Assembly (NCBI GenBank): GCA_022563535.1
Contig: JADFNE010000040.1
Coordinates: 1 to 39,270 of the forward strand
Length of the DNA stretch: 39,270 nucleotides
Source of the DNA: Myxococcales bacterium
GTDB lineage: Bacteria; Myxococcota_A; UBA9160; UBA4427
Direction: 5' to 3'
Numbering within the stretch: position 1 is the stretch's first letter; every line of letters begins with the position of its first letter. The notes beneath the pieces were generated by a model. That model saw only the letters and a list, made by a program, of their open reading frames with translations. It did not search any database and was not told where the DNA came from. The position numbers and the translations under genes were made by a program. Positions 7,654 to 34,846 of the stretch are shown here, one piece after another.

Positions 7654-10600
7654 TTGCGTAATCGCAATACTGGAGTCCCCATCCGTTCAGCTTCCGAAAG
7701 CTCTCCTGAATCCGAAAGCTGTCGTCTTGCAGCGTTTCGAGCAGTCGGCGCAGCCCTATGCCTGATCGGATCCGTCGGGCTGACTGCAGTGACCCATGCG
7801 AGCGAAGACCCGTCGAAGAACACGACGAATGCAATCGGCACACAGGACAACCTGGTTACCTTGACCGACGCACTACGCATCGACCAACTCCCGGACGCGG
7901 ATACGGCCGGCTCCGAGGCAATCCGCTTTGCGCCCGGCGAGCTGATCGTTCGACTCCGCAAAGAGGTGGGGAGCCAGATCCACCGCGCTCGCGCAGATGG
8001 ATTTGCCTCTGCAATACCCGGCGATCCCGCCGCGGCCCAGCTCGACGAGATTCTGCTTCGCCACAAGGCGAAGAAAATGCGCCGCATCTTCAAGGTTTAC
8101 GAGGACGCCCACGGGCGACAGATTGACACTGCACGCGCGCGCCTCCTGCACGTTCGCGAAGCTCGCCAGAACCAGAGCAAACGGCGTCTACCCCCACTGC
8201 CAGCCCACACACCTGATCTCGAAAATTTCTTTCTCGTCGAAATTCCGGGACTCGAGACGACGGAAGAACTGAACGTCGTAATGGGCGAGCTGCGAGCCAA
8301 CGATCTGGTGGCTGACGTTCAGCCGAACTTCATTCATCGGATTCAGGCCGAACCCTTGCCCAACGTAAGCACCGTTCCAAATGATCCCTACGTGAGTAGC
8401 AACGGCACGACCTGGTCGGAGGGCAGCTTCGGAAACGCTTTCCCCGACCTGTATGGCGTGCGCAATCTGCACGTCCTCGAGGCCTGGAGCCTCTTGGATA
8501 CGAACGGGAACGGCGTATTCGACGAAAGCGAAATCGCTCCGGGTGAGGGCGTGGTCGTCGCGGTAATCGATTCCGGCCTGGACCTGGATCACCCTGACAT
8601 TGCGGGGGGCGTCTTCATCAATATGGGAGAGACGCCGGGCGACGGAATCGACAACGACGCCAACGGGCTGGTGGATGACGTGAGTGGCTGGGACTTCGTC
8701 GACGACGATTCCGTCCCGGAGGATTATCTCGGCCACGGAACCCATGTCGCCGGTACGATCGCGGCCGGTTCGAACAACGCCGAGGGGATCGTTGGAATCG
8801 CGCCCTTCGCACAAATCTTGCCCATCAAGGCGCTCAATGACGAAGGCTTCGGCCTTTCCGCAGATCTGGCTGCGGCCGTGCACTACGCGACCAGCGTAGG
8901 TGCCCACATCACGTCGAATTCCTGGGGTGGCGTGTTCGACGACCCGATCATTCGGGCCGCGTTCGACGACGCCGAAGCCGCCGGCGTGCTCTCGCTTGCG
9001 GCTGCCGGCAACAGCGCCAGGCCCCAAGTATTGATGCCCGCCCTGTTTCAGAGCGTCGTGGCCGTCGCCGCGGTCGATGCTGGAGACGTGCTGGCGTCGT
9101 TCTCGAGTTGGGGTTCCGAACTCGAACTCTGCGCTCCCGGCGTGGGCGTGCTCTCGCTCTCGGCAAACGATCACGACAACCGCTACGCCAACGGCACCGG
9201 GCGCGCAGTGGGTGATCGCTACCTCTGGCTGAGTGGCACCAGCATGGCGACCCCGCACGCAAGCGGGGTTGCGGCTCTCATGATGAGTATGCATCCCGAT
9301 GAGTCGGCCGCAGAGATTCGCGGCCGCCTGCTGGCCGGCGCGGTCTCGATCGATTTGCAGAATCCCGGCAGAGAGGACGACCTGGGCGCCGGGAGGGTGG
9401 ACGCGCTCTCGAGCGCCACCGCGGTTCCGACCCCGCTGCTGCGTCCCGTCGCGATTCGCGCGGGTGCGATCGTCGCGGGACAGCTGGCCTCGGTCGAGGT
9501 GGAACTGCGGAACCACTGGGTGTCCGCCACCGGCGTATTCGTTTCACTCACGAGTACGGACCCAGACGTGAGCGTTGCCGACGGCGATCGCGACTATGGC
9601 GATATGGCGAGCGGAGAAACCGCTTCCAGGTCATTCGAAATCCAAATCGCGCCGCAGGTCGAGCTCGGAACAGAGCTCAGCCTGCTTCTGACAATCACCG
9701 CCGACGGCCTTCCGGCGCAGGAGCACGCCTTCTTCGTGCGCGGCAGCTTCTTCATAAACCAGGACGATCTCGCCGAACTCAGTCCATTTCCATTCTTTGT
9801 CTTTGGCGCGACCTTCGGCGACTACGACAGCGACGGGCTGCAGGACATGGGAATCGGCACGGCTTTGGCAGCGACAAATCTCTATCGCCAAAATCCCGAT
9901 GGAACTTTCAGCCAGCACCAGCCCAATGGCTCTGGCTCAACCCGCTATCCAATCTTTGTGGACATGAACAACGACGGTCTTCTCGACATGTTGGCCGTCG
10001 GACCCGCCATCACCTCCAGTGCAGTCCTTGCGATAAACGTCGGAGGAGGACGTTTCGAGGTTCTGCCGGCTTCGAGCGGCTTCGCGTTTCCAGAATCGAG
10101 TCAAATTACAGGCATCACGCCGATCGATTACGACGCCGATGGCGATCTGGATTTGGTGGTGGGAGTCAGGGCTCTCTTTCAGGACGACCAGGGGGTTCAC
10201 CGCAATATCTTGGTGCTGCGCAACAACGGAGATCTCACCTTCTCCGACGCCTGGGCAGAAACGGGAATCGGAAGGCTCATGGGCAGTCACCAGTACCTGA
10301 CCCTCGACTGGAATGGCGACGGCTTCCAGGATCTATTGGGACTCCATCGATATTCCAACCGTCTGGCGCTTCATCGAAATCTGGGCAAGGGAAAATTCGA
10401 AGACGTGACCAGCATTGCCTTTCCGGACGAGTTCCTGGCGTGCATAAACTGGGCACAAGAGATCTGCGATTTTTTCCGGACGGCTGCTGCGGGAGACTAC
10501 GACAACGACGGCGACACAGACTTGTTGCTTGTCATCGCAGGCAACGTTTCGGCGGAGGACAGATCCGCCATCATGCTGCTCGAAAACGATGGGAACGGCG

Positions 10601-11604
10601 TCTACTCGGACGCGACCGATCAAGCGGGAGATCTCGCGACGGTGACGATGTTAAGCGGGTTGTGGGGCACTTCCTTTTTCGATCTGGAGAATGACGGCGA
10701 TCTGGACATCCTCATCCCGATCGACATTGCGCTTTTTGGGTCTCCGTTTCGCCAACCCGAAACGAAGGTCGTGATTTTTCGCAACGACGGCGAAGGTCAC
10801 TTCACTCACGTTTCGGACATCGCATTCCCCACCGATACACCCGTAGCGACGTTGATCGCGGCCGTGGGGGACTACGATGGTGATGGCGCGCAAGACATTC
10901 TCGCTCCAGTGAGCAATATCATTGGGCTGGTCGGCGGCCTGATGCACAATCAAGCGGGCCGGGAGCAAGCCTGGCTCGAGGTCGAACTCAACGGGATCGA
11001 CAGTGCACCCAATGGTTACGGTGCTCGGGTGACTTTGGTCGCAGATGGCCGCGTACAAACCCGGGAGATCCACTACTCGCCCGTCGAATTGTTCCGAGTC
11101 CATTTTGGCCTCGGTAGTAGCGCGATCGTGAACGTCCTGGAGATTCGTTGGCCGAGTGGTGCCGTCGGGATCCAACGCGATGTGGCAGTCAATCAACGAC
11201 TCAGCGTGACCGAGGGCATTCTCTGCCCGGACCTGCAGGGCGGGCAGTGTCCCACTGTAGAGATCGACATCGATCCCCTTAGCGACAAGAATCGCATCAA
11301 TCTCCACAGCAATCGCTACTTACGCGTAGCCATTCTTGGCTCCGAAAATTTCGACACAGCAAATATCGATGTGGCGAGGACTTTTTTTGGCCCGGCGAGA
11401 GCCACTGCGGCGCACAAGCAGGGAGGTCATATTGAAGATGTGAACGGCGACGGTTTGCTCGATCTGGTTTCCCACTACCGTATTGCAAACACCGGCATCG
11501 AATTGGGCGATGTCGAGGCATGCCTGAGGGGTCAGTTGCTGGACCGCACGCCCTTTGCGGGCTGCGATCGGGTCCACCCCGTGGCGAAGAAGAATTCCAA
11601 GTAA
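7654..11604 (+). CDS. Secreted subtilisin-like protease fused to VCBS/FG-GAP repeats and an ASPIC/UnbV domain
   Basis: A 1316-residue exported multidomain protein. A signal peptide (about 24-50, ending VTHAS) is followed by a propeptide-like region to about 240. The S8 peptidase domain has a complete active site: Asp306 (AVIDSGLDLDHPD), His361 (GHGTHVAGTI), the oxyanion Asn453 (AAAGNS) and Ser530 (SGTSMATPHASG). Just before the catalytic Asp is a textbook EF-hand loop, residues 282-293 (DTNGNGVFDESE). Then come about seven calcium-loop repeats of the FG-GAP/VCBS kind (GDYDSDGLQD, DYDADGDLDL, GDYDNDGDTDL and others), expected to form a beta-propeller. An ASPIC/UnbV domain follows (NGYGARVTLVADGR...LEIRWPSGAV), and a last segment ends LLDRTPFAGCDRVHPV. 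The start is a TTG with no clear ribosome site, so the true start may differ slightly. Likely a calcium-dependent extracellular or surface protease. Confidence 0.93.
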   Translation: MRNRNTGVPIRSASESSPESESCRLAAFRAVGAALCLIGSVGLTAVTHASEDPSKNTTNAIGTQDNLVTLTDALRIDQLPDADTAGSEAIRFAPGELIVRLRKEVGSQIHRARADGFASAIPGDPAAAQLDEILLRHKAKKMRRIFKVYEDAHGRQIDTARARLLHVREARQNQSKRRLPPLPAHTPDLENFFLVEIPGLETTEELNVVMGELRANDLVADVQPNFIHRIQAEPLPNVSTVPNDPYVSSNGTTWSEGSFGNAFPDLYGVRNLHVLEAWSLLDTNGNGVFDESEIAPGEGVVVAVIDSGLDLDHPDIAGGVFINMGETPGDGIDNDANGLVDDVSGWDFVDDDSVPEDYLGHGTHVAGTIAAGSNNAEGIVGIAPFAQILPIKALNDEGFGLSADLAAAVHYATSVGAHITSNSWGGVFDDPIIRAAFDDAEAAGVLSLAAAGNSARPQVLMPALFQSVVAVAAVDAGDVLASFSSWGSELELCAPGVGVLSLSANDHDNRYANGTGRAVGDRYLWLSGTSMATPHASGVAALMMSMHPDESAAEIRGRLLAGAVSIDLQNPGREDDLGAGRVDALSSATAVPTPLLRPVAIRAGAIVAGQLASVEVELRNHWVSATGVFVSLTSTDPDVSVADGDRDYGDMASGETASRSFEIQIAPQVELGTELSLLLTITADGLPAQEHAFFVRGSFFINQDDLAELSPFPFFVFGATFGDYDSDGLQDMGIGTALAATNLYRQNPDGTFSQHQPNGSGSTRYPIFVDMNNDGLLDMLAVGPAITSSAVLAINVGGGRFEVLPASSGFAFPESSQITGITPIDYDADGDLDLVVGVRALFQDDQGVHRNILVLRNNGDLTFSDAWAETGIGRLMGSHQYLTLDWNGDGFQDLLGLHRYSNRLALHRNLGKGKFEDVTSIAFPDEFLACINWAQEICDFFRTAAAGDYDNDGDTDLLLVIAGNVSAEDRSAIMLLENDGNGVYSDATDQAGDLATVTMLSGLWGTSFFDLENDGDLDILIPIDIALFGSPFRQPETKVVIFRNDGEGHFTHVSDIAFPTDTPVATLIAAVGDYDGDGAQDILAPVSNIIGLVGGLMHNQAGREQAWLEVELNGIDSAPNGYGARVTLVADGRVQTREIHYSPVELFRVHFGLGSSAIVNVLEIRWPSGAVGIQRDVAVNQRLSVTEGILCPDLQGGQCPTVEIDIDPLSDKNRINLHSNRYLRVAILGSENFDTANIDVARTFFGPARATAAHKQGGHIEDVNGDGLLDLVSHYRIANTGIELGDVEACLRGQLLDRTPFAGCDRVHPVAKKNSK

Positions 11605-14567: not shown

Positions 14568-14609
14568 GTTGTTGCAGCATTGTTGTTGCAGAGTTGTTGT
14601 TGCATTTGA
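14568..14609. repeat. Three tandem 14-bp repeats (GTTGTTGCA core) in the leader of the di-haem gene
   Basis: GTTGTTGCAGCATT (14568-14581), GTTGTTGCAGAGTT (14582-14595) and GTTGTTGCATTTGA (14596-14609) form an exact 14-bp register ending six bases before the ribosome site. They share the GTTGCA core with the 11-bp array at 14370, about 200 bases upstream. Confidence 0.65.
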
Positions 14610-14615
14610 GTCTCC

Positions 14616-14620
14616 GGAGG
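14616..14620 (+). promoter_or_regulatory. Shine-Dalgarno deciding the di-haem gene start
   Basis: GGAGG eight bases before the GTG at 14629. The open frame continues upstream to a TTG at 14569, but that part is repeat-derived sequence without a ribosome site. Confidence 0.65.
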
Positions 14621-14628
14621 TTCTGTCG

Positions 14629-16110
14629 GTGCGAATTCGAACATTGGTGAGTGGCACGAGTTCTATGTGCCCGGTCAACTCTCACAGCCAAGGTGGCCGC
14701 ATACTGGATACGACTCACCTCTTCGCGCTGTTCGCATTGCTCGTGGGTTGCGCGTTGCCCCTGGCTGCGGCAGCACGACCCGAATTCGAAGGGCCGCGGC
14801 TCGACGTCGACATCACTCAAGCGGAGATCGAAGCGAGGACCCATACGCTGAACACCCTCCGCAGCGCTGGCCGGCGGGTATTCTCGACCCCCTTCAACAA
14901 GGCCGATGGCCACGGCGACGGCCCGATGGACCCGAGTGATCCAACCGCCCTCGGCGGCCGACCTACCCTGCAGGACAACGGAACGTTTCTCCGTTTCAAC
15001 GGCCTCGACAGCCAGACATGTCTCGAATGTCACAGCATTCTCAGCAACCGGACGATTCCTGCGACCTTCGGTGTCGGGGGAGCGGGCTCCGCCAGCGCGA
15101 ACGCGTTCCCCGGTGTCGTCGCTCCCGACATCGCCGATACCGCGAACAACGGCTTCGCAGCGATCAGTGGCCGCATCATCAATCCACCGATCCTGTTCGG
15201 CGCCGGCGGGATTGAACTCGTCGGCAAGGAGATGACCACGGACCTTCAGGACCTTCTCGACCACGCTCTCGATCACCCGAACGTCGTAATATCTCTCGAC
15301 GCCAAAGGGGTGAACTTCGGCACGCTCGTCTGCGACGAAGCGGGGGCCTGCGACATGTCCAACGTTCAGGGGATCGAAGAAGACCTCGTCGTGCGACCCT
15401 TCGGCCGCAAGGGCGAGTTCATCTCGACGCGCCAGTTCGACCAGGGAGCTCTCCTGTTCCACCTGGGCATGCAGCCGGTCGAGATCGTCGAGTTGCTCGG
15501 CCGGGGACCCGACCCGGACGGCGACGGTGTCGAAAACGAGATCACGGTTGGGCAACTTTCCCTCTTGTCGATCTTCATTACGACCCTCGAACGACCGATT
15601 CAGCTGAAGCCCAACGGACAGGCACGCAACGGAGAGCGTCTCTTCGACCAAATCGGATGTGCGGACTGTCACGTTCCCATGCTGACGACCCAGTCGCGCT
15701 CGCTCGGCTTGGCGTTCCCCGAGATCGATCACGACCCCTCAGCCAACGTGTACTACTCGATGAACCTGTCGAAGAGACCTACTGGCTTTGATCGCTCGGG
15801 CCCCGGCCTTCGCGTGCCGATGTTCGCCGACCTGAAACGTCACGACATGGGGGAGTCCCTCGCAGAATCCACCGGTAGCGATCTCGCTTCGATGTTTACC
15901 ACCGCGCGGCTCTGGGGCGTAGCAGACAGTGCCCCATACCTCCACGATGGGCGTGCGCTGACCATAAGCGCTGCAATTCTTCTCCACGGCGGCGAGGCAG
16001 AGGCCTCAGCCGCAGCTTTCGACGACCTGTCCGACAGGGAAATGGAGGCCGTGCTCGCCTTCCTCGGAACGCTGCGAACCCCAGCGAAAGTCGGGCGAGA
16101 TCTCGACTAA
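14629..16110 (+). CDS. Exported di-haem cytochrome c peroxidase-like protein (DUF1111/DHOR type)
   Basis: A 493-residue protein with an N-terminal export signal (LFALFALLVGCALPLAAAA; the LVGC also fits a lipobox) and two haem c sites: Cys131-Leu-Glu-Cys134-His135 and Cys344-Ala-Asp-Cys347-His348. The C-terminal part has the segments ADLKRHDMG and RLWGVADSAPYLHDGRA, typical of the DUF1111 di-haem oxidoreductase family related to the MauG/CcpA peroxidases. It should act in the periplasm or at the outer membrane as a peroxidase or other oxidoreductase; the electron partner is not visible. The GTG start is set by GGAGG. Its stop overlaps by four bases the stop of the convergent gene at 16107. The repeat arrays upstream suggest tight regulation. 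Confidence 0.88.
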   Translation: MRIRTLVSGTSSMCPVNSHSQGGRILDTTHLFALFALLVGCALPLAAAARPEFEGPRLDVDITQAEIEARTHTLNTLRSAGRRVFSTPFNKADGHGDGPMDPSDPTALGGRPTLQDNGTFLRFNGLDSQTCLECHSILSNRTIPATFGVGGAGSASANAFPGVVAPDIADTANNGFAAISGRIINPPILFGAGGIELVGKEMTTDLQDLLDHALDHPNVVISLDAKGVNFGTLVCDEAGACDMSNVQGIEEDLVVRPFGRKGEFISTRQFDQGALLFHLGMQPVEIVELLGRGPDPDGDGVENEITVGQLSLLSIFITTLERPIQLKPNGQARNGERLFDQIGCADCHVPMLTTQSRSLGLAFPEIDHDPSANVYYSMNLSKRPTGFDRSGPGLRVPMFADLKRHDMGESLAESTGSDLASMFTTARLWGVADSAPYLHDGRALTISAAILLHGGEAEASAAAFDDLSDREMEAVLAFLGTLRTPAKVGRDLD

Positions 16111-17864
16111 TCTCGGGACCCCCGATTGCGAGGGCCAGCGACCCAGTCGGGGGCCATGATCACACGATTCAATCTCCAAGCGGAGCTTTTGCGCACCGGG
16201 CCATCGATGTCATATACGACCAGCTTGCGCAGGTAGGGGGCCTTCCAATCGGCTTGGGACCAGGGGTAGGACGCGAACTGACGCTTGCGCTTCGCACCTT
16301 TCACGTGTGTGAAGGCAGAGATTCCGGGGAAATTGTGCTCCCAACCCAGTTGTTCGAAGATCGTCGCAGGGATGTCACCGATGAAAGACGGCGCCTCCGA
16401 AACCTCAACAGGCCCGATTCGCCCGGCAGGCTTCACCATCAGTAGCGCGAGCGCCTTTCCAGCCAGGAGCGAGAAGCGTCTGTCATTTCGAGTATTCCCG
16501 GGCAGACGCGCCACAGAAACCCCGACCCCGTGATCGGAGCTGACCACGATCAAGCTCTCCTGGTAGATCCCGAGTTCACGCATACGGTCCAGCAGCCGTG
16601 CGAGCACCCGCAGCGAACAGCGTGACTGATCGATGAGTGTCTCGCGGTTTGTTGGAACCACACCGCTGAACTCGCACTCTGGGCCGCGGATGAACGGTGG
16701 ATGAATGCCTCCCGTATGAATGAGCTTGAACACGGGCTCTTCCCGGGTAGCCACTGCACGGGCCGCAAAGTCGAGCAGGAAGGCGTCGCCGTTGCCTGAG
16801 TGATACACGCGTTCTGGATGAGACTGAAGCCGGCGCAGTCGCCACCCGCGATCGGCATAGACCCACGCCTTGATGCCGTGGAAGCCGAATCGAAACAACG
16901 ACAGGTCGACTAATTGCAAGACTTCGGACCGGATGCGCTCAGTCGTGGAGCCGTACGGCATGGGGATGTCGAACCGGGTACTGGGCTCGGTGCCGATGAG
17001 CAAGTTCGTAATGCCCGCCAGGTCCGTCCTATAGCCGTGCTCGTGAAAGAGTTCAAAAATCGATGCCTGCTTCTCCGCTTGTCGGATGAAATCCATCAGC
17101 GGCATTTCGTTTCGATAGACCGCGCCAGTCATGATCGCCGGCAAGCTCGCCTTGGTGGTGGGGAAGCTCCCGGCATTGTCCCGGAAAAAGACGAAGCCGG
17201 CGTAGTCGCGATCAAACCACTCCTGCTCGGTTTGGTGCAGCGTGTCGACCGCATCGGATTGGAGGCTGTCCAATATGATGAGCACGACGTTCTGATTCTT
17301 CGAAAAGTCCCACAGCTCCGGTGCGGGCTCGTACTTGTGGAGTTCCGCGTTGTCGAGCAGTACCGAGAGCGACTGCTGACCCGCCAACGCTACGGAGAGC
17401 GCCGAGACGAACTGGAGAACCAGCAGAGCGGCGCAACCCCGTGATGCCAATGGGGCGAGACGGCGCGAATGCCACAAGGCGATCGACGGAAGTCCGATCC
17501 AGATCGGGAGTTCGTAAGCGAGCCGCCAGCGCTGTGACGCGAGGTCGATTCCTCGTCCATCCAGGATGCCGTAGTCCGCTACCAGCAGGCCCCCTTGAAG
17601 CCAGAGCACGACCCCCGCAGAGAAAAGTACCGACACGTACGCCCCACGCCGTCGCTCGCCCAGAAGCCACCCGAGTAAAAAGAGTGCGGTCGTTGCGACC
17701 AACGTGAGCCCCACGAGACTCGGGAGCACCGATTGCAGCGACGCATGAAACTCGCCGGGATTGCCGAGATGAAGATTCAGCGGCCCCATCAGAAACAACT
17801 CGGCGGGAATCACCAAGGCGGGCAGGATCAACGAAGCGACGGATTTGAGTGTGGGCGGCTGCAT
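16107..17864 (-). CDS. Membrane-anchored alkaline-phosphatase-superfamily (sulfatase/LTA-synthase-like) protein
   Basis: A 585-residue protein with about five membrane helices in the first 170 residues, then an extracytoplasmic catalytic domain. Metal-binding landmarks are Asp199 (VVLIILDSLQSDAV), a FPTTKASLPAIMTG segment (about 235-248) where a Thr replaces the formylglycine Cys as candidate nucleophile, a His-rich IHTGGIHPP (about 382-390), and SSDHG (Asp444-His445). No CxPxR occurs, so it is not a canonical sulfatase; phosphoglycerol or phosphoethanolamine transferases share this architecture. It is last in a three-gene operon, eight bases after the GT-C-like gene. I infer transfer of a phospho-substituent to, or hydrolysis from, a surface polymer or lipid. 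Confidence 0.85.
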   Translation of the reverse strand: MQPPTLKSVASLILPALVIPAELFLMGPLNLHLGNPGEFHASLQSVLPSLVGLTLVATTALFLLGWLLGERRRGAYVSVLFSAGVVLWLQGGLLVADYGILDGRGIDLASQRWRLAYELPIWIGLPSIALWHSRRLAPLASRGCAALLVLQFVSALSVALAGQQSLSVLLDNAELHKYEPAPELWDFSKNQNVVLIILDSLQSDAVDTLHQTEQEWFDRDYAGFVFFRDNAGSFPTTKASLPAIMTGAVYRNEMPLMDFIRQAEKQASIFELFHEHGYRTDLAGITNLLIGTEPSTRFDIPMPYGSTTERIRSEVLQLVDLSLFRFGFHGIKAWVYADRGWRLRRLQSHPERVYHSGNGDAFLLDFAARAVATREEPVFKLIHTGGIHPPFIRGPECEFSGVVPTNRETLIDQSRCSLRVLARLLDRMRELGIYQESLIVVSSDHGVGVSVARLPGNTRNDRRFSLLAGKALALLMVKPAGRIGPVEVSEAPSFIGDIPATIFEQLGWEHNFPGISAFTHVKGAKRKRQFASYPWSQADWKAPYLRKLVVYDIDGPVRKSSAWRLNRVIMAPDWVAGPRNRGSRD

Positions 17865-17872
17865 AGTGGAAA

Positions 17873-19456
17873 TTAATTGCGTCCCTTCTTGGGAAGTCGC
17901 TTGAAACGCGAACTGTCCTGCACCAGGCCCCAGCGATCGACAAATTTCGCACCCGACTTCTGGGCCGAGAACATGATCTCTCGCGCCGGCATTTTCAACC
18001 TCCTGGACCAGATCACGCCGGAATCGCTGGGAATGCCCGTCTCAATCGTTTTCTGATCATCGCCGATCAGACGGCTGAGTTCCTTGGCATCGTACTGGTA
18101 GAGCGTTGTGTAGCTCCAGTGCTGAAAGTAGGAGATTCTGCTCTCGGGGTGCTGCGTTTTGGGAAGCACGAGCAACAGCGCCAGGATCGGAACGCTCACC
18201 AGGACGGCGCGGCGCGAGAACGACTGTTCGAGCGCGAGACCCCAGGCCACGACTCCGAGCGGAAGGAACGCGGTAATCCACCAGAAGAAGAAGCGATTCC
18301 GCGCGTACATCGAGGGTCGCATGAGTTCGTCGACCTGGGGGATGTACCGGCCGCCGAAGTTTGCGCGCCCATAACTCACCAGCAGCGCATAGATCAACAC
18401 GGCCGCGAGCAGAGCCGTCACCACGATCGCCGTGCTACGACGATCAGCGGCAATCCGGTCGCGGACGATGAGCACAGGCAACCAAAACATTGGCAGGGCA
18501 AAGAAGAGCGCGACAAGCGACCCGCGCAGATCGGGAATCCATCCACTGGCAGTCGACAGGACAGCACGATCGAACAGACCGACGAAAAATTTCCAAAAGC
18601 TGGCGTCGGTGGGCCACGCCACCGAATACTTACGCGAATCGATGATCGGGTTGACATCGTGGACCTGCATCGGCATTAGCACGTGGAGTGAGAGAACCAC
18701 TGCGGCAGTCACAAGGATGATTACCGCGAGGTTGCGCGACGAATTCGACAACTCGCCCGGGGCGAACCGAGTCAGCTCCGAAACGGCCAGCACCGCGGCT
18801 CCGAAGACCACCAGGACAACGGCACCGCTCGAGTAGACGAAGGCGGAGAACAGCGTGATCACGACCGCCAGCGCGGGTGCGAGGCCGCGCGGCCAGCGAC
18901 TTCGATCGAGCACACAAAGCAGCCCGAGCAACGTGAGCCCCAAGACAGGGAGCATCTGGTGATAGGCGATCGCGGGCTCGAGCCACTGATACGGCGACAC
19001 GGTTACGAAGTACGGCGAGCCCGCCAACGCCAGGCACAACACAAGCAAGCTGCTGACCAGGGCAACCGGTCGATCCTGCGAGGTCGCCCTGAGCAGCGCG
19101 ACGGTCGCCAGCAACCAGCCTCCGAAGAACAGCCCAAAGCCGAGGGTCATGAGCAGGTTGTAGTCGTGGGACAGGTTCCGGAAAAATAGCCAGTCCAGGA
19201 ATTTTCCCGTCACGTGGAGCGTGTCCGTAGCGGGTCGGAAGAGCCACTCGAAACTGAGCGCCTCGGGCATGCGGTAGCGACCAAAGTAGTAACGCCAGTC
19301 GTCGACAACGGGGTAGTCGAGGCGGAACCGCGACAGCGCGAGGAGTTGGCTCGCGAAAAGCAGTGCGATCAGGGTGAGTGGCGGAAGTAGGTACGTCCGA
19401 TTATTTGCCGAGAAGGCCCGCATGAGTCCCCTGCGCCGATCGTCAGCCGTCAACAC
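17873..19456 (-). CDS. Polytopic GT-C-like membrane protein
   Basis: A 527-residue protein with about ten predicted membrane helices. The first extracytoplasmic loop contains YPVVDDWRYYFGRY (about residues 48-61), an acidic pair placed like the catalytic aspartates of GT-C enzymes that use polyprenyl-phosphate sugars. The soluble C-terminal tail (from about 430) is of unknown function. The GTG start at 19456 is one base past the stop of the upstream gene, so translation is probably coupled; an alternative ATG at 19423, preceded by AGGGGA, would shorten it by 11 residues. It lies between two alkaline-phosphatase-superfamily genes in one operon. It could instead be an unrelated membrane protein; no family is firmly recognised. 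Confidence 0.75.
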   Translation of the reverse strand: MLTADDRRRGLMRAFSANNRTYLLPPLTLIALLFASQLLALSRFRLDYPVVDDWRYYFGRYRMPEALSFEWLFRPATDTLHVTGKFLDWLFFRNLSHDYNLLMTLGFGLFFGGWLLATVALLRATSQDRPVALVSSLLVLCLALAGSPYFVTVSPYQWLEPAIAYHQMLPVLGLTLLGLLCVLDRSRWPRGLAPALAVVITLFSAFVYSSGAVVLVVFGAAVLAVSELTRFAPGELSNSSRNLAVIILVTAAVVLSLHVLMPMQVHDVNPIIDSRKYSVAWPTDASFWKFFVGLFDRAVLSTASGWIPDLRGSLVALFFALPMFWLPVLIVRDRIAADRRSTAIVVTALLAAVLIYALLVSYGRANFGGRYIPQVDELMRPSMYARNRFFFWWITAFLPLGVVAWGLALEQSFSRRAVLVSVPILALLLVLPKTQHPESRISYFQHWSYTTLYQYDAKELSRLIGDDQKTIETGIPSDSGVIWSRRLKMPAREIMFSAQKSGAKFVDRWGLVQDSSRFKRLPKKGRN

Positions 19457-19457
19457 C

Positions 19458-21050
19458 CTAGCGAAACTCCCTGCTCACATCTATTTGCCTGAATGGATCT
19501 TTGTATCCCTTCGGTAGGTCATAGTGCTTCACTTCCCGCACTTCGTAGTCTGCGCCGAAGTACTCGTTCAGCAATATCCCGAATGTGTTTATGGGAGAGA
19601 GCTCGCGGGTCACTCCAGACGGGCGGGCACCCGGCAGGTGAAGGGCGTGCATGATCTCGAAGTGCTTCAAACGATAATTCCTGGTCCAGACATCTCCCAG
19701 ATTCGATCCGTGATCTGCCTGCAGGATGATGATCGGAGGGGTACTCGATTTTTCGATCACACTGCCCAGGGCCTCGATCAAGCGATCGTTGACGAATTCG
19801 AGTTCGTCGAAGAATTGACGAGGCGAGGGTTTCTGGATGCTCTGCTCCAGCAGGCTCCCGTCCCGATGCAATTGAACGGGGGCGTGTGGTTCCATGAGGT
19901 GCACGAACGTAAAGGTCGCGACGGAACGTTCGGGGATCTTCTGGAGTTCTTCGAGGGTGGCCAAAAACCGCTTGGGGTTGCTCCACAGGTACGATCGACC
20001 GCTCTGCACCCAGGGCTCGAGGGCGTCGCTGAAGAGTCGCAAGAGGGTGGTCTGGACCAGGAGTCGCGAGAAGGGCTCCTTGTAGAACCCTCCTGTAATG
20101 ATGCTATCGATGTCGAAGTATCGTTCGTCGCTCTTCGTGTCCGAGTAATTGTATTCGATCAATCCGTCACTACCGAAATCGTAATTGAAATCCGCGATCC
20201 GGCTCGGCAGCAGGTAACCCGAAAGCATGTAGATGTAGGTATAGCCCCGGGCCAGCAGGTCGCGCGCCACGGCGTTGTCCGCGATGGACATCCGGAGGTA
20301 GACGAGATCGTCCACCTCCGCGGCCAGGGGTTTATCTGGCATGTATTGCATGTTCAGTGAAGACGCCAGGGAGAGCAGTGTCGCTCCGTAGTTGCTCTTG
20401 CTGTCGTACGCGACAAAGAAGCCGAGTTCCTCGAGGGCATCGGTAAAGCGCGAGTTGTCGTAGCCGTAGCTCCTTAGCAGATGCGCGTTGCTCGAGTAGC
20501 CGTCGACGATGATGTAGTAGATGTCGGGATGCTCCGGCCCATCTCGTACTTTTTCTCTGGTTACCTGTGCGCCCCCCTCTTCGACCCAACCACCGGGGTT
20601 CCGCGTCGAGACCTCCGCGAAGTACGAAGCGATCACAAAGGTCGGATATAACAGAAGCACAATCGCCGCCGTATTGGCCCCCGATGTGGTGAAGGCGGAT
20701 AGCGCGATCCCGTCGGCCGGTCGCCGCCAAAGCAAGAGAATCAGGGCGCCGATCGAAATGAAGAACGCATAGGGGAGCGCGACCAATGCCGATGCGTGGC
20801 TGCCCTCCTCGAGGAAAATCGCCAGATAACCGTACGAGTAGAAGCCGAACAGGATCAGACTCGCAATCAGACTCGCCTTCGAAAGGCAGCCGGTCAATTG
20901 CCGCAGCCCCATGACCAGTAGCGTCGTCACGCTGAGGCTGGCTGCGATCGCGACAGCCACGGGTACATCCGTGACGATCCCGAGATTCTCCGAGTAGAGG
21001 TGGAGTATGGGGAAGACACTCAGCAGCCAGGGGTGGATCGGTTTCTGCAT
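19458..21050 (-). CDS. Membrane-anchored sulfatase-like (alkaline phosphatase superfamily) protein
   Basis: A 530-residue protein. About four to five helices fill the first 145 residues, then an extracytoplasmic catalytic domain begins PDIYYIIVDGYSSN (metal ligand Asp183). The characteristic segment SNYGATLLSLASSLNMQYM follows, with Thr224 as candidate nucleophile, and the second metal site is LQADHGSN. This belongs to the branch of sulfatase/LTA-synthase-like proteins that lacks the CxPxR signature. It is the first gene of the minus operon running to 16107 and is divergent from the SGNH protein, with a 91-base shared upstream region. No clear ribosome site precedes the ATG. Substrate unknown; a surface-polymer substituent transferase is the inference. 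Confidence 0.87.
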   Translation of the reverse strand: MQKPIHPWLLSVFPILHLYSENLGIVTDVPVAVAIAASLSVTTLLVMGLRQLTGCLSKASLIASLILFGFYSYGYLAIFLEEGSHASALVALPYAFFISIGALILLLWRRPADGIALSAFTTSGANTAAIVLLLYPTFVIASYFAEVSTRNPGGWVEEGGAQVTREKVRDGPEHPDIYYIIVDGYSSNAHLLRSYGYDNSRFTDALEELGFFVAYDSKSNYGATLLSLASSLNMQYMPDKPLAAEVDDLVYLRMSIADNAVARDLLARGYTYIYMLSGYLLPSRIADFNYDFGSDGLIEYNYSDTKSDERYFDIDSIITGGFYKEPFSRLLVQTTLLRLFSDALEPWVQSGRSYLWSNPKRFLATLEELQKIPERSVATFTFVHLMEPHAPVQLHRDGSLLEQSIQKPSPRQFFDELEFVNDRLIEALGSVIEKSSTPPIIILQADHGSNLGDVWTRNYRLKHFEIMHALHLPGARPSGVTRELSPINTFGILLNEYFGADYEVREVKHYDLPKGYKDPFRQIDVSREFR

Positions 21051-21141
21051 GGTCGGATGAGTATAGGAAAATTAAGCCGCGGGACGGTCATGGGGAACAG
21101 GGCTATTCTTCTACACTGACCCCACGAGACCTGACGACACC

Positions 21142-22320
21142 ATGCCTAGAAGTATCCGGATCCTGATCGCGAAGATCGTCGTCTCATTCGTGAGCGCATG
21201 TCTCACCCTCCTGGCGGTCGAGTTGGGCGCCAGGACGCACGACCGGTTCTACCGACAAACTCCCAACCTGGATATGTTCGAGTTTCGCCAGCAACAGCCG
21301 CCTCCATACCGAGACGCTCCCTACTACTCCAAAGACTTCGTCGTCGAGTCGTTCAAACAGCCCGGAGGATTCGACATCCCCAAGGGCACGCGGCTCGTCA
21401 TTCCGCGAGACTACGAGGGAAAGTGGTTCAACATCGCGGGCGGTCTCCGGGTTACCGAGGGACAGCCTGAAACCTTTCGTCACACCGTCTACGTACTGGG
21501 TGGGTCAACGGTCTACAGCGGCGAAGTCCCCGACGCGTTCACCTTGCCCAGCCAGCTGCAGTTGCTCTTCACTGAACACTACGGAGACCGCTACCGGGTC
21601 CAGAATTATGGCATGACGACGGTCACGAGTTCTCAAGAGCTTGAGCGGCTGCGCACGATCAAGCTGCTGGCTGGGGACATCGTTGTCTTTTATGACGGCG
21701 TCAACGACGTATTCCAGGAGATCTACTACGCGCGCCCCGCAGAGACGATGGTCGAGCGAAATCGCAGAGCCATGGAAGAGTTCTCCCATGTAGAGCGACT
21801 CCTCATTCGACTTTCGGAGCACTCGGTGTTCATCAAAAACTGGACCAGTCCAATCAATTACGTGGACGTCCCCTCGCACCTCCGCGATCGCGAGGAGTTG
21901 GCGGTGCTGGTTCACTCACTGCAGGGCCGCTACCGGAGAAACATCATCAGTGCCCGGAAATATGCACATGCGCACCGAGCCAATTTCTTCCACTTCCTCC
22001 AACCCAACCTGTACACGATCAGGACACCCACGACCTATGAGAAGAAGATTCGTCAGAACCCGAACCTCTACGCTCCACCGGGCATGGATGGCGCGTTCGA
22101 GCTAGCGTATCCGCTCTTGAGGGAAGTGAGCAGAAATCTGCGCTCAAGCGAAGAGATGAACGCCTTCGACTTGACCGATGTTTTGGATGAGCGCGAGCCT
22201 GGGCAAGAGCACTACCTCGACATATGCCACGTGACCCACGCTGCAAATCTGATCATTGCATCGGCCATGTTCGAGGAGATCGCACCCTCGCTGGATACCG
22301 AACTACCCGGGTCCAACTAA
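21142..22320 (+). CDS. Membrane-anchored SGNH-hydrolase-like protein
   Basis: A 392-residue protein with one N-terminal membrane/signal helix (about residues 7-27), so it faces outward. SGNH landmarks are VLGGSTVYSG with Ser122 as nucleophile, the block II glycine in QNYGM, VVFYDGVND with the block III asparagine, and a C-terminal DICHVTHAAN carrying the Asp-x-x-His pair. Family members remove or transfer acyl (often acetyl) groups on polysaccharides and peptidoglycan. Divergence from the sulfatase-like operon suggests a joint role in surface-polymer modification, which is inference. Ribosome site weak. Confidence 0.8.
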   Translation: MPRSIRILIAKIVVSFVSACLTLLAVELGARTHDRFYRQTPNLDMFEFRQQQPPPYRDAPYYSKDFVVESFKQPGGFDIPKGTRLVIPRDYEGKWFNIAGGLRVTEGQPETFRHTVYVLGGSTVYSGEVPDAFTLPSQLQLLFTEHYGDRYRVQNYGMTTVTSSQELERLRTIKLLAGDIVVFYDGVNDVFQEIYYARPAETMVERNRRAMEEFSHVERLLIRLSEHSVFIKNWTSPINYVDVPSHLRDREELAVLVHSLQGRYRRNIISARKYAHAHRANFFHFLQPNLYTIRTPTTYEKKIRQNPNLYAPPGMDGAFELAYPLLREVSRNLRSSEEMNAFDLTDVLDEREPGQEHYLDICHVTHAANLIIASAMFEEIAPSLDTELPGSN

Positions 22321-24052: not shown

Positions 24053-25708
24053 ATGGCGAATGCGGATCAAGAAGTTGGGGAGGTGCCGGAAGAATCGAAT
24101 CGTTTGATCGCGGAGAGCCCGCTCCCGCGAACCATGCGGTCGCTTCTGTTTCTCGCCACGTTCGCGGCCGGGTTCGAAACCACAGGGATCGAGATCGCGC
24201 TCGGGCGACTGCTCGCACCCCATTTCGGAAGTTCGCTGACGGTCTGGGCGGCGATCATCGCCTCGGTGATCGGAGCACTCTCGGTCGGTTATCCGCTCGG
24301 CGGTTGGCTCGCCGATCGCAGGCCGGGACCGACCTTGCCGCTGATGGCGCTGCTCGGGGGTGGGATACTCGGTACCGGGCTGGGAATCGCTGTACCGCAT
24401 TGGTTGCGCGTTGCCCTCGCCGGTGTTGCGTTCTCCGGAATCGAATTCTGGGGGCGCCTTTCGGTTGCACTGCTGCTCTTTGCCCTGCCCTGCATCCTGC
24501 TCGCGACAGTGCCACCCGCGGTCTTGCGCCTGACCTTGCGCGACCGCACAACGACGGGGCGCGATGCGGGCATGCTCTACGCACTCGGGTCGATCGGAAG
24601 CGTGCTCGGGATCCTGCTGCCCGCTCTCTGGTGGATCCCGCTGCTCGGCGTGCGCGTCACATTCTTGCTGCTCGGTGCCGCCGCCGTGATTCCCGCTGTA
24701 GTGGGCCTCATATCGCGAGGTGCTGGCGCACGAAAGAAGACGGCCGCGATCGCGCTGTTGTCGATCACGTTGTTGTTCGCCGCGATGTTCGCCGTGCCGG
24801 AGGCCGTGCGCGATCCTGAAGACGCGGGTACGCAGGTGCTCTACGACCGTGACTCTGGGGTACAACGCATTCGGATTACGTCGAGCGATCGGGGCGCACA
24901 CCGCATTCGCTGGCTTCAACTCAACGAGGGTTGGTCGATTCACTCGTGGCTTCGCGAGCCTAACTACGTAACCAACGATGTCTGGGATTGGATGGCGCTC
25001 TCGGCGCTGATCCCGCAACCGTCCGACGGCCAGACCGACGTATTGATCGTCGGCCTGGCTGGGGGCACGGTGTCGAACCTGATCACGCTCGTGCTCGCTC
25101 CAAATCTCGGCAAGGTCGCGATCACCGGAATCGAACTTGATCCGGAGGTCATCAAGGTGGCGGATCGCTACCTGGGTCTCGATCGCAGCCAGCTCACGAC
25201 AGTCGTCGCCGACGGGCGCGTCTGGCTGCGGGGAAGCAGCGAACAATTCGACTTGATCATCCTCGACGCCTATCACCAACCGTCGATTCCCGCACATATG
25301 GCGACCGTCGAGTTTTTTGAAAACGTGCGAGCCCATCTTTCGCCGGATGGCCTCGCGGTACTCAACGTATTCGCTCCCGCTGAGCAATCGCGAATACTCT
25401 CGGGAATCAGTGCCACCTGGTTGGCGATCTTTCCCGGCGCGCAGTGGCTTCGCGGGCCCGCTGCGAACGGCTTGGCATCCCATCTCCTGCTCGGTGGCCC
25501 AGCGGTTCCGATCAATACATCGCACGTCACATTCGCTCAAATTCCCAAGCCGATACGCCGGGGCTGGCGGCTCTACGAGCGCGTCCGAGATCTTGTCGTT
25601 GCGCCCGGTGTTCGGCCCTGGACGGATGACCGGGCTCCGATTGAACTCCTGACCGACCGTGCGTATCGAAGTCTGCGACCCGAGAACCCCGAACGGCCTG
25701 CTGCCTGA
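24053..25708 (+). CDS. Membrane protein fused to a spermidine-synthase-like domain (copy 1)
   Basis: A 551-residue protein: seven or so membrane helices over residues 28-250, then a class I SAM-fold domain like polyamine aminopropyltransferases. Nucleotide-binding features are VGLAGGTVSN (333-342), acidic residues in TGIELDPEV (Glu361, Asp363), Asp387 (VVADGRVWL) and Asp405 in IILDAYHQPSIPAHMATVEFF, the position of the catalytic Asp in SpeE. Such fused membrane/spermidine synthase proteins are common but poorly characterised. It starts 14 bases after the ALDH gene and its stop overlaps the next start by one base (TGATG), so translation with copy 2 is coupled. Whether it makes polyamines is unknown. 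Confidence 0.88.
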   Translation: MANADQEVGEVPEESNRLIAESPLPRTMRSLLFLATFAAGFETTGIEIALGRLLAPHFGSSLTVWAAIIASVIGALSVGYPLGGWLADRRPGPTLPLMALLGGGILGTGLGIAVPHWLRVALAGVAFSGIEFWGRLSVALLLFALPCILLATVPPAVLRLTLRDRTTTGRDAGMLYALGSIGSVLGILLPALWWIPLLGVRVTFLLLGAAAVIPAVVGLISRGAGARKKTAAIALLSITLLFAAMFAVPEAVRDPEDAGTQVLYDRDSGVQRIRITSSDRGAHRIRWLQLNEGWSIHSWLREPNYVTNDVWDWMALSALIPQPSDGQTDVLIVGLAGGTVSNLITLVLAPNLGKVAITGIELDPEVIKVADRYLGLDRSQLTTVVADGRVWLRGSSEQFDLIILDAYHQPSIPAHMATVEFFENVRAHLSPDGLAVLNVFAPAEQSRILSGISATWLAIFPGAQWLRGPAANGLASHLLLGGPAVPINTSHVTFAQIPKPIRRGWRLYERVRDLVVAPGVRPWTDDRAPIELLTDRAYRSLRPENPERPAA

Positions 25709-27846
25709 TGGAAGCCAGCGACAGCCCGCCAGCGGAGCCCGCGGTCGGCCTCGACCAGTCTGCCCGCCCGTGGCGACTGGTGTTCGGCGCGAGTCTCATC
25801 GCGGGAGTCGTGCAGATCGCGTTGATTCGCGAACTTTCGGCCTACCACGCGCTTTCTTCGGTGGACTTGTCGATCCGCCTGGTCATTGCGGTCGTGATCG
25901 CCGCGTATGGAATCGGCGCGGTGCTGTCCCCGCTGATCGGGCGCTTTGGTGAAGCGAGAACCCTGGCCGCGTTGGGTAGTGGGCTGGCGCTCTACCTGAT
26001 CGCGCTGCTCGTCGCGGGCCTCTGGTGGCTCGAGTCCCAGTTGTCGGCGAGTGCAGTAGATGCCGTGCAACTTCTCACCCTGGGCGCGCTGGTTGCGCCC
26101 CCCTTCGTGGCGTGCGGCATGGTGGTCGCGCACCTCGTAACGAATCTCCAGCGACACTCTCCCGATCGGATCGGCGCGTTCGTGGGACTCTCGCTCGTCG
26201 GAACGATGGCGGGGGTCATCCTCTCCTACCACTACGCCCAGTGGGTCGGCATCAATTCGCTGATGGTGCTGGCCGCACTGTGCGCACTGCCGGTGTTGAT
26301 GGATCGCCTGAAGACCGCTGCTTTGGTGGCGGTCATCGTTACGGCGCTCCCGCTGGAAGGCTGGCTCGAAGCGCAGCGCGAATCGCGCCCCGATTTCTTT
26401 GGTCCCGTCAGCACCGAAACCACCGAATTGGTCTTCAGCGGTTGGTCACCGCATCAGAAGGTGGACCTGTACACCTTCGAAGAAGAGATTCTGCTGGGTT
26501 GTTATAACGGTTTCTGGCAGTGGTGGGTGGCGGCGCGCACCGACCATCCCAACGCGTTTCCCGGGTACTCGCTGCTCTACAACAGCGACTGGATCGAAAA
26601 TCGCGATGTACTCGTCATTGGCTCCGGGGCCGGAATGGGTCTGCTTCACCTGGAAGACAGCCACCCGCGTTCGATCACCGCGGTCGAGTTGGATCCCCTC
26701 GTCATCGAGCTTTCGCGTGGGCCGTTCGCGTCTTTCAACGATCGGATCTACGACCGCGTTGATATCTACGCGATGGACGGTCGCTCGTTTCTCGAGGCGA
26801 CCGATAAAAAATTCGACGTGATCATCTACGAGGCTTCATTTCTCACGGCCACGCATCCCAAGGTCGCCGTCAGTGCCGAAAACTATCTCTATACGAGGGA
26901 AGGCATTGAAGCGGCGTTGCAGCGCCTGCGTCCGGGTGGACTGGGCATCGTGACCTATGCGGGCTCGAATCTCGCGTTTGCGCGCGTGATCGAAGGGATC
27001 AAGCAGCAGGGTGCCACGGTGGCGACGCTGCGAGTGGTGGCAGATGAAACGCTGTGGCCGATCATGCCCGCGTTGATTTTCGGGCGAGACGCTGAGCAGG
27101 TAGACCGCGTTCTCGAAAAAATCTTCGCGAGCGAGACGAGCGCTCGGGTCGGACCCTATATGACGAAGGCAACCGGCGCCGAGTCGATCACCGATGCGCG
27201 CCCGTTTCTCTACGCAGGCCGGCCCGGAGAACTCCAGCCACTCGCGTGGATGACCGCAGGCTGTCTCGCCGCGCTGTGCTTCGGACTGCGCAAACCTCGG
27301 CAGCGCGCCGTTCGCTCTTATTTCTTTTTGATCGGTGCCGCGTTCATGCTGGTGCAGTACGCCCTGGTCTCGGCATTCCGATCTTTCTTGGGCGATCCGG
27401 TCACCACCGCATATGCGATCATATTGTTCCTGCTGGGCGGAATGGCGTTCGGGTCGGCGAGACTTCCGGTGTTTCTCGCATGGTCGCGCCAACGACAATG
27501 CATTTGCGCAGGGGCGGCGCTGCTGATCTCCACCGCCACGACCTGGTGGCTTCCGCTCGACCTGGCTTTCTTGCCGATCGGGTTCCGATCACTCCTTGCA
27601 GCAATCGCGGTGGTTCCCGTCGCTGTACTACTCGGCATCTTCTTCCCCCTGGGGTTGCGCGGGCAGACGCATGAAGCCGTCGCAACTGCCTACCTGTACG
27701 ACGCTTTGGGCACGATTGCGGGGTTCATGCTGTTCTACCTAGTCGCGCTACAAGCAGGCATCGCCGCCCCGTTCGGCCTTGGCGCCGTCGCATACGCAGC
27801 CGCCTGGTGGGTACTTCCCGCTGGAAAGAGAAATTACTTGACCTGA
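25708..27846 (+). CDS. Membrane protein with embedded spermidine-synthase-like domain (copy 2)
   Basis: A 712-residue protein with about six helices (22-215), a spermidine-synthase-like Rossmann domain (about 240-490) and a second block of about six helices (510-710). It keeps a SAM/nucleotide loop, GSGAGMG (305-311), acidic residues Glu327 and Asp329 (VELDPL), and Asp357 (AMDGRS). At the position of the catalytic Asp there is Glu375 (IIYEASFLTATHP), and the following DxxDP-like loop is absent, so normal aminopropyl transfer is doubtful. The ATG lies within the stop of copy 1. The double membrane block differs from copy 1 and suggests a flippase- or transport-like role or a different SAM-linked chemistry. 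Confidence 0.85.
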   Translation: MEASDSPPAEPAVGLDQSARPWRLVFGASLIAGVVQIALIRELSAYHALSSVDLSIRLVIAVVIAAYGIGAVLSPLIGRFGEARTLAALGSGLALYLIALLVAGLWWLESQLSASAVDAVQLLTLGALVAPPFVACGMVVAHLVTNLQRHSPDRIGAFVGLSLVGTMAGVILSYHYAQWVGINSLMVLAALCALPVLMDRLKTAALVAVIVTALPLEGWLEAQRESRPDFFGPVSTETTELVFSGWSPHQKVDLYTFEEEILLGCYNGFWQWWVAARTDHPNAFPGYSLLYNSDWIENRDVLVIGSGAGMGLLHLEDSHPRSITAVELDPLVIELSRGPFASFNDRIYDRVDIYAMDGRSFLEATDKKFDVIIYEASFLTATHPKVAVSAENYLYTREGIEAALQRLRPGGLGIVTYAGSNLAFARVIEGIKQQGATVATLRVVADETLWPIMPALIFGRDAEQVDRVLEKIFASETSARVGPYMTKATGAESITDARPFLYAGRPGELQPLAWMTAGCLAALCFGLRKPRQRAVRSYFFLIGAAFMLVQYALVSAFRSFLGDPVTTAYAIILFLLGGMAFGSARLPVFLAWSRQRQCICAGAALLISTATTWWLPLDLAFLPIGFRSLLAAIAVVPVAVLLGIFFPLGLRGQTHEAVATAYLYDALGTIAGFMLFYLVALQAGIAAPFGLGAVAYAAAWWVLPAGKRNYLT

Positions 27847-32596: not shown

Positions 32597-32666
32597 CAAG
32601 CCACTGCCCCCCTGACTAAAGTCCGCATCGATCGATTCCGAATTGACTCGGTTGGGGAGGGGGGAA

Positions 32667-34732
32667 GTGTCGACCGAAAGCGCGAAAAGCAGCGATTCGC
32701 AGCGGCCAATTGTCGACGCGCAATCCTCTGACCCGCTGCGCGAAGTACTCCTCTGCGGCGCTGTCTTTGCGACCAGCCTGTGCGTCTATCTGCTCACGCT
32801 CTCCCCGACTGTCGCGCTCGGCGATAGCCCCGAGCTCGCCGTCGCCGCCCATCGCCTGGGCATCGCGCACCCCACCGGCTACCCGCTCTATACCCTCCTC
32901 GGTCATCTATGGCTCAATCTGCTGCCGGTCGGGGACGTGGCCTGGCGCATGAACCTCTTCTCCGCGCTCACGGGTGCGGCCGGAATGGCTGTCTTCGCAT
33001 CGTTCCTGCTGCGCTTCACACAGAGCGCGTTGGGGGCCTGGGCGGGGGCCATCTCGTTTGCGTTCACGCCCCTCTTCTGGGCACAGTGCACCCTGACCGA
33101 AGTCTATTCTCTTCACGTCTTCCTGCTCGCGGTCGTGATGTGGATGTGGGGGCAGTGGGAGGAAACACGAGAACGCCGCTGGCTGAATGGCCTGGCGCTC
33201 AGCATTGGATTTGCAGCGACCCACCACGGCATGACGATCCTGCTCGTACCCTTCCTGGTGGTTTGTCTTGCTCACTCGCGCCCGCGAGTGGTGGGGGGCC
33301 GCATCGGTCGCCCAGCTCATATTGCTGGGCCTCCTGCCCCTTACCCTCTATCTCTACCTCCCCATCGTGGCCGCCGGCGATCCCGTCCTCGCCTACGGGG
33401 TGACCCCCGACTGGAGTTCATTCTGGGGGCATGTCACAGGCTCGCGCTTTCACGCATTGGTCCACCTGCCGGGGACCGCCGAACAGACCCTCCTCAACAC
33501 GCTCGCGCGCTGGCTACGCGGCATGTACGGGATCTACTCAGTCTTTCTGGTCGTCGCGCTGGCGGAGATCGGCTTTCAGCTCGGACGGCGGCGTCGACTC
33601 GCCGCCATCGCGCTCGCGTACGTACCAGCGGTGATCTTCGGGATGTCGTACTGGGTGGTGGATCGCGCGATCTTCTACATCCCCTCGATCTTCATCTTCT
33701 CGATCTGGATCGCAGAGGGCGTCGCGGGAGGAAGCAGGCTCAGTGCTCGCTACTCGCAGCTATCAGGTACCGCGTTCGGCGTTGTCGCCGCATTGGCGCC
33801 CGGATTGCTGCTCCACAACTTCGATGCTCTCGACCAGAGCGACTTCTACGCTGTCCACGACGAGACGATGGCAGCCTTCGGGGCCGCTTCCGAGGACGCC
33901 ATCTTGCTCATGGCCCTCGGCTTCATGGAGGATGACGCGGTCCTCTATGCCTCACTCGTCGAAGACGTGCGACCGGACGTCGAGGTAATCGACTATGCCC
34001 TCAACCAATACGGCCAATACGAACCCGAATTGGATCGGCTGCGCACAGCACACATCTCCATCGAGGAAGTCTTTCGGAGATCCGTCGCCGTGCAGCTGCG
34101 CGACGTTGACCCCGAACGAGAGATCTTCCTGCTCCCGGGTCGCAAGGATTACGATTGGAAGTCGATCGGCTTCACCCGTGTAACACTCGGCGTGATCGAT
34201 CAATTGGCCAGACGCACCCCCGACCTTTGCAGCACCGCCATCCCGACCTTTGCAGCGAACCTCGAGATCGACAAGGGGCCGACGTTTCGCGGCTTGTCGG
34301 TCGCAGTCCCCACGATCCTACAAGGTGACGTTCTCGAGCTGCAGCTGTATTGGGAACTCGGGGAGCGCTGCCGTGGAGCCATCCATCTATATCGTGCTGG
34401 GGGATCGCCGCGGAGGCTCTCCACTCGACACCCAGGGTCGTCCACTCGTGCACAATCGCCATCTCCTGGGACAGGGCGTCCCACTCGACGACTATGCGCC
34501 GGGGACCACGATCCGCGAGCGCATCCTGCTCGCCATCCCCTACGCGCTTCCCGCCGGCGACTGGGTAATCTGGTTGGGCGTCGAACGCGACGGCAAACTC
34601 CAGCGATTTGAAAATGGTCTGGAACTGATCGCCGCTGCATCCGTCCGCGTCGAAGCCCGGGAACGCGACCTATGGAGGCTACCCGTCGTCAGTCGACCCG
34701 CGGGCACGCTGGGGAACGACCAGAACCGGTAG
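32667..34732 (+). pseudogene. DUF2723 polytopic glycosyltransferase-like protein, interrupted by two frameshifts
   Basis: Three consecutive frames make one protein of about 687 residues. Frame one starts at the GTG 32667 (G-rich ribosome site) and holds the DUF2723 signature LSPTVALGDSPELAVAAHRL followed by GIAHPTGYPLYTLLGH. At about 33262-33270 it passes to the next frame (LTRAREWWGAASVAQLILL...), and near 34365-34378 to the third (VEPSIYIVLGDRRGG to DLWRLPVVSRPAG). Both changes equal one extra base. The joined product aligns end to end with the paralogue at 34847, which fixes the frame positions. DUF2723 proteins are multi-spanning GT-C-type enzymes. The pieces remain well conserved, so either the lesions are recent or they are sequencing errors. 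Without them the gene would be functional. Confidence 0.8.
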
Positions 34733-34846
34733 AGCAAACCGCAGGTGGCCTTGCCTGGCTCCGCTTCGTTGATTTTGGCAGTGTCTTGCGTCAGCGAAAC
34801 GTGCAGAGGTACAGCTGCCAACGAAGACTGCCGAAACAATCATGCC

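Follow-up and report, generated by a model that had tools for sequence, protein, structure and literature searches.

Two predicted phospho-substituent transferases and a GT-C-like protein are encoded in a lineage-specific operon of a Myxococcales bacterium

What might be built or modified by an operon that joins two membrane-anchored proteins of the alkaline phosphatase superfamily to a polytopic protein, with a gene for an SGNH protein diverging from it? The genes lie in the window analyzed here, a stretch of 39,270 nucleotides that is one contig (C40) of a 4.6-Mb genome in 147 contigs. Three of them occupy the minus strand: P0003 (530 aa; 19458..21050), the first gene of the operon, is followed after 1 bp by P0002 (527 aa, GTG start; 17873..19456) and, after a further 8 bp, by P0001 (585 aa; 16107..17864). 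The operon ends where P0001 overlaps, by 4 bp, a convergent gene resembling di-haem cytochrome c peroxidases (14569-16110). P0004 (392 aa; 21142..22320, plus strand) is divergent from the trio, and the 91 bp between the start codons of P0003 and P0004 (21051..21141) are likely to constitute the start region for both directions; a promoter scan of this region, of limited informative value in an organism of this kind, returned no sigma-70-type site. This anatomy, for which the sequences of the starts and of both gaps were read, agrees exactly with that described in the original prediction for the locus. Because homologs exist for P0001, P0003 and P0004, and because P0002 is polytopic over 527 codons, chance open reading frames are excluded.

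P0003 is predicted to comprise five N-terminal transmembrane helices followed by a periplasmic domain of the alkaline phosphatase superfamily. P0003 itself has no Pfam match, and no dedicated model for its family was found in Pfam or NCBIfam; 14 of the 19 aligned family members match PF00884 (Sulfatase). Within this alignment D183, T224, H384, H389 and D446 are invariant (n=19), and H447 is kept in 18 members, with Glu in the remaining one (L061). In the AlphaFold model (pLDDT 75.9) the five helices fall within residues 6-149 and T224 lies at a helix start. A Foldseek search with this model returned MCR-1 first (9.5e-9), then EptC, ICR and EptA; as the TM-scores are moderate (0.3-0.5), the likeness is one of fold. 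EptA, EptC and MCR-1 share with P0003 the five helices plus alkaline phosphatase domain, the Thr nucleophile and the Asp/His metal ligands, but differ in that P0003 is only about 12% identical to them in structural alignment and adjoins a GT-C-like gene. Membership in the superfamily was found by model, by PDB profile and through relatives. A genome-wide named search with the 67-aa catalytic stretch of P0003 yielded two loci, and one with the full-length protein gave no matches. Members of the family occur in the window's phylum and in metagenome-assembled genome records titled Chloroflexi and Acidimicrobium.

P0001, the last gene, encodes a protein with four clear transmembrane segments by hydropathy, a likely fifth, and then a Sulfatase-fold domain (PF00884, 4.1e-16). 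Seven of the 379 genomes sampled from the phylum contain the family at E <=1e-20. In an alignment of six members, two of which are paralogs from the same genome (C7:70258-71934 and C34:32388-34076), D199, T237, R325, H388, D444, H445 and K478 are invariant. The C34 paralog adjoins a YfhO-family gene (G000:C34, L058:375-15420); close by are an ABC exporter and other genes that may relate to glycans.

The profiles of the two families are homologous (hhalign, 99.3%), with T237 of P0001 aligned to T224 of P0003, and both proteins have the superfamily fold, its metal ligands (an N-terminal Asp, a C-terminal DHG and a His) and the layout of LtaS, EptA and MCR enzymes, in which about five N-terminal transmembrane segments precede a periplasmic Thr-nucleophile domain. 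The CxPxR (C/S-x-P-x-R) nucleophile signature of sulfatases is absent from both P0001 and P0003, which carry SFPTTKASLPAIM and SNYGATLLSLASS, and a sulfatase function was rejected on that ground. The original prediction of sulfatase-fold proteins with Thr in place of the signature is borne out by the invariance of this residue (6/6 for Thr237, 19/19 for Thr224). In EptA and MCR-1 the phospho-head group, once removed from a membrane lipid, is borne by the catalytic Thr, a residue that LtaS also has (PMC7576196, PMC12658134). Given their mutual homology, the aligned Thr and this shared chemistry, P0001 and P0003 are best read, from sequence and model, as periplasmic phospho-substituent transferases and not sulfatases; this predicted enzyme class is well supported. 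The score against the NCBIfam EptA equivalog, 10.3, is far under its cut-off of 561.

Between the two predicted transferase genes lies that for P0002, whose 11 hydrophobic segments and positively charged N-terminus are accompanied by a 59-residue loop after the first transmembrane segment; the loop bears the motif VVDDW at 50-54, its DD at 52-53, much as had been predicted. Proteins of the GT-C class have 7-13 transmembrane helices. GT-C enzymes in general carry a catalytic Asp in an extracytoplasmic element following the first transmembrane segment (PMC11127046), of which D58 of PimE is an example (PMC12041525). No convincing relative of P0002 was found in Pfam, NCBIfam or the PDB, and a single-sequence AF2 model was unreliable (pLDDT 45, pTM 0.28). 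A GT-C reading, drawn from topology, motif and context only, is the likeliest.

The divergent gene encodes the membrane-anchored SGNH protein that had been expected: P0004 has one N-terminal transmembrane anchor and an intact SGNH hydrolase domain, in which the blocks GGS, N155, GVND and DICH align and the catalytic positions are S122, N188 and D360-x-x-H363. Its family profile matched CgnD (8a2n, 2.5e-21) and many SGNH esterases in the PDB. As CgnD detaches the leader peptide from the core of crocagin (PMC10070186), this likeness alone fixes no substrate for P0004. Inspection of the neighborhoods of eight P0004 relatives revealed no linked alkaline phosphatase-family genes and so gave no support to P0004 as a conserved partner of the operon; its tie to the three genes is one of position only.

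We asked whether the gene set recurs in relatives. Searches for P0002 in the 79 further genomes of the order, and among what remained of 98 relatives, came back empty; the 379-genome phylum sample contained no significant relative, its only other match being weak and covering 62 residues (E 0.008). P0001 relatives adjoin a methyltransferase gene, a threonine-dehydratase-like gene and others, and not the set seen in the window. Across the order, the 98 relatives and the phylum sample, the exact trio was seen in one genome only. A conserved four-gene system is accordingly rejected, with P0002 lacking relatives in the 79 other genomes of the order and the relatives of P0001 and P0004 lying elsewhere; this is the outcome that the original prediction had named as counting against it. 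Of the single decorating system proposed there, what stands is the pair of Thr enzymes, probably acting with the GT-C-like protein, and what falls is the conservation of all four genes. The operon is a lineage-specific combination of known kinds of enzyme, and decoration of a surface glycan or glycolipid is its probable task.

The P0003 family offers a broader view of the company kept by such genes. A polytopic neighbor (380-720 aa, strongly hydrophobic) in a shared same-strand run was present for 6 of 20 P0003-family genes (L050, L051, L052, L117, L119 and the window), against a background of 34 among the 251 other genes of these stretches (p=0.056). The p value becomes 0.019 if L133, added after the fact, is counted; in this locus, from a record titled Acidimicrobium, a GT2 gene and a PMT_2 GT-C gene lie just upstream of the P0003-family gene. 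The excess is modest and, given the kinship among the loci and the use of controls from those very neighborhoods, suggestive only. Most of these polytopic neighbors score under Pfam thresholds, and several have GT-C-style acidic motifs near the N-terminus. They are unrelated to P0002 in sequence, and the idea that P0002 is of the same type was rejected (hhalign probability 0.2%, nothing by phmmer). The nearest likeness to the layout of the window is L050, from the same order, where a single run contains a P0003 relative, another alkaline phosphatase-superfamily gene and a pair of polytopic genes. Further, the P0003 family occurs in 4 of the 7 genomes with the P0001 family, against 15 of all 379 (hypergeometric 5e-5, with kinship ignored).

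A second association is clearer than that with polytopic genes. A class I SAM methyltransferase that starts with SFRDPSGF is encoded directly upstream of a five-helix alkaline phosphatase-superfamily transferase, often with overlapping ends, at L113:6025-9002, L115:5975-9042, L121:9052-12005, L134:5357-8220 and L057:9806-13431. The methyltransferase family adjoins P0003-family genes in L113, L115, L121 and L134, the last a Chloroflexi locus, and the pairing is seen in different phyla; it also adjoins the P0001 paralog on contig C7 of the genome studied here. Of 14 genomes searched, 13 have one copy each: the gene adjoins a P0003-family gene in G207 and G126, lies a few genes away in G245 and G040, and in five relatives from the order is either apart from both alkaline phosphatase families or near weak matches only. 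The window's operon lacks this family. Elsewhere, at L120:8720-14966, a P0003 relative and a PF04464 glycerophosphotransferase-like gene overlap, with genes for PEP mutase and phosphonopyruvate decarboxylase in their vicinity; this locus is possibly a phosphonoglycan cluster, and its context fits a phospho- or phosphono-decoration.

How well does a joint pathway survive these comparisons? One may argue that the genes encode envelope enzymes that have merely come to be adjacent in this lineage, since the trio is not conserved in relatives and the relatives of each gene occupy different contexts. Against this stand gaps of only 1 and 8 bp, the recurrence of polytopic GT-C-like genes beside P0003-family genes, and the run in L050; we regard adjacency with no shared pathway as fairly unlikely. 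That the operon encodes two inner-membrane transferases of the LtaS/EptA/MCR kind which, with a GT-C-like protein, modify a surface glycan or glycolipid is the reading we favor, and we hold it to be moderately likely. Most probably, each transferase would take a phosphorylated head group (candidates are phosphoethanolamine, phosphoglycerol or a phosphonate analog) from a membrane lipid onto its own Thr, releasing diacylglycerol as the Thr is loaded, and would then hand the head group to a sugar of the glycan or glycolipid. P0002 would glycosylate that same acceptor in the periplasm, drawing the sugar from a polyprenyl-phosphate donor, with P0004 possibly remodeling acyl groups of the product. 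The presence of two alkaline phosphatase-family enzymes suggests either (i) two modification sites, or (ii) two head groups. We infer, rather than observe, that all three enzymes share one acceptor, as we do the identity of the head group, the activity of P0002 and the role of P0004.

Parts of such a scheme have precedents. BcsG, encoded in the cellulose operon of E. coli, is an alkaline phosphatase-superfamily phosphoethanolamine transferase with a surface polysaccharide as its acceptor (PMC11379886); it differs from P0001 and P0003 in using a Ser nucleophile, and its partner is the cellulose synthase BcsA, not a GT-C enzyme. In the three-component periplasmic glycosylation systems of the Gtr and GT136 types, sugar transfer takes place beyond the cytoplasm, where a GT-C enzyme draws on a polyprenyl donor (PMC11127046). 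The three components described include no alkaline phosphatase-superfamily enzyme (PMC11127046); conversely, no polyprenyl-sugar synthase or flippase is encoded within the operon studied here. Literature searches found no described gene set that joins a GT-C enzyme to an LTA-synthase-like one.

Eukaryotic GPI-anchor assembly combines GT-C mannosyltransferases and ethanolamine-phosphate transferases of the alkaline phosphatase superfamily on one glycolipid. The operon may follow the same logic of GT-C enzyme plus alkaline phosphatase-type phosphotransferase, a resemblance that we use as a working analogy only. The bolder proposal, that P0002 is the first member of a new GT-C family and that the product, a surface glycan or glycolipid, bears two different phospho- or phosphono-substituents as a bacterial counterpart of GPI-anchor logic, is in our judgment unlikely.

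Instead of decorating a glycan, P0001 might be a polymerase. It would then build poly-phosphoglycerol by repeated phosphoglycerol transfer as LtaS does; P0003 would serve as the primase or the side-chain enzyme, P0002 would glycosylate, and the product would be a polymer like lipoteichoic acid. When the P0001 family was searched by profile against solved structures, lipoteichoic acid synthase LtaS (2w5r) was indeed the best match (2.3e-9), with related LTA synthase and primase structures also among the best, and two related alkaline phosphatase enzymes do share one operon. LtaS and OpgB (MdoB) also have the transmembrane-plus-domain layout of P0001. However, P0001 falls far under the NCBIfam equivalog cut-offs for both (15 vs 970 for LtaS; 10.6 vs 574 for OpgB), the fold is common to the decorating enzymes OpgB, BcsG and EptA, and the operon contains no genes for an LTA-anchor glycolipid. 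A polymerase is, on this evidence, rather unlikely.

It is more improbable still that one or both proteins are regulators or sensors like YejM/PbgA, which would keep the fold and decorate no glycan. The layout of five helices plus an alkaline phosphatase domain is shared, and YejM structures, together with BcsG, are lower-placed Foldseek matches of the P0003 model. Nevertheless, no YejM model appeared among the NCBIfam matches of P0001 or P0003 (E up to 1), conservation of the Thr and metal ligands extends over diverse members of both families (19 and 6) whereas some clades of YejM homologs lose the Thr (PMC7576196), and the neighbors of the relatives are glycan-type and methyltransferase genes. 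Finally, although the genome has 43 PF00884 matches, among them an apparently ordinary sulfatase at 1293-2942 of the window, a role for P0001 and P0003 as sulfatases or phosphatases, hydrolases that would degrade external glycans, is highly improbable, as the CxPxR needed for formylglycine is missing, the proteins have transmembrane anchors and a Thr nucleophile, and their best matches are of the transferase type.

The P0003 family matters more than the operon itself, which is found in one genome and brings parts of known kinds into a combination particular to one lineage. Members of this family are MCR/EptA-like enzymes with intact active sites that would tend to be annotated as sulfatases, and their repeated company (polytopic GT-C-like genes, one family of methyltransferases, a phosphonate cluster) suggests that phospho-decoration of surface glycans is wider than annotated in little-studied bacteria.

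Elsewhere in the window, two adjacent polytopic spermidine-synthase-like genes lie at 24053-27846, and a polytopic gene of this type is found near the P0003 relative in L061. A 1316-aa protein encoded at 7654-11604 combines a subtilase domain with FG-GAP repeats and an ASPIC/UnbV domain. At 32643-36577 there is a tandem pair of TMEM260-like (O-mannosyltransferase-like) genes, the first of which overlaps an open reading frame (33268-34611) resembling the rest of the second; this may be a frame break.
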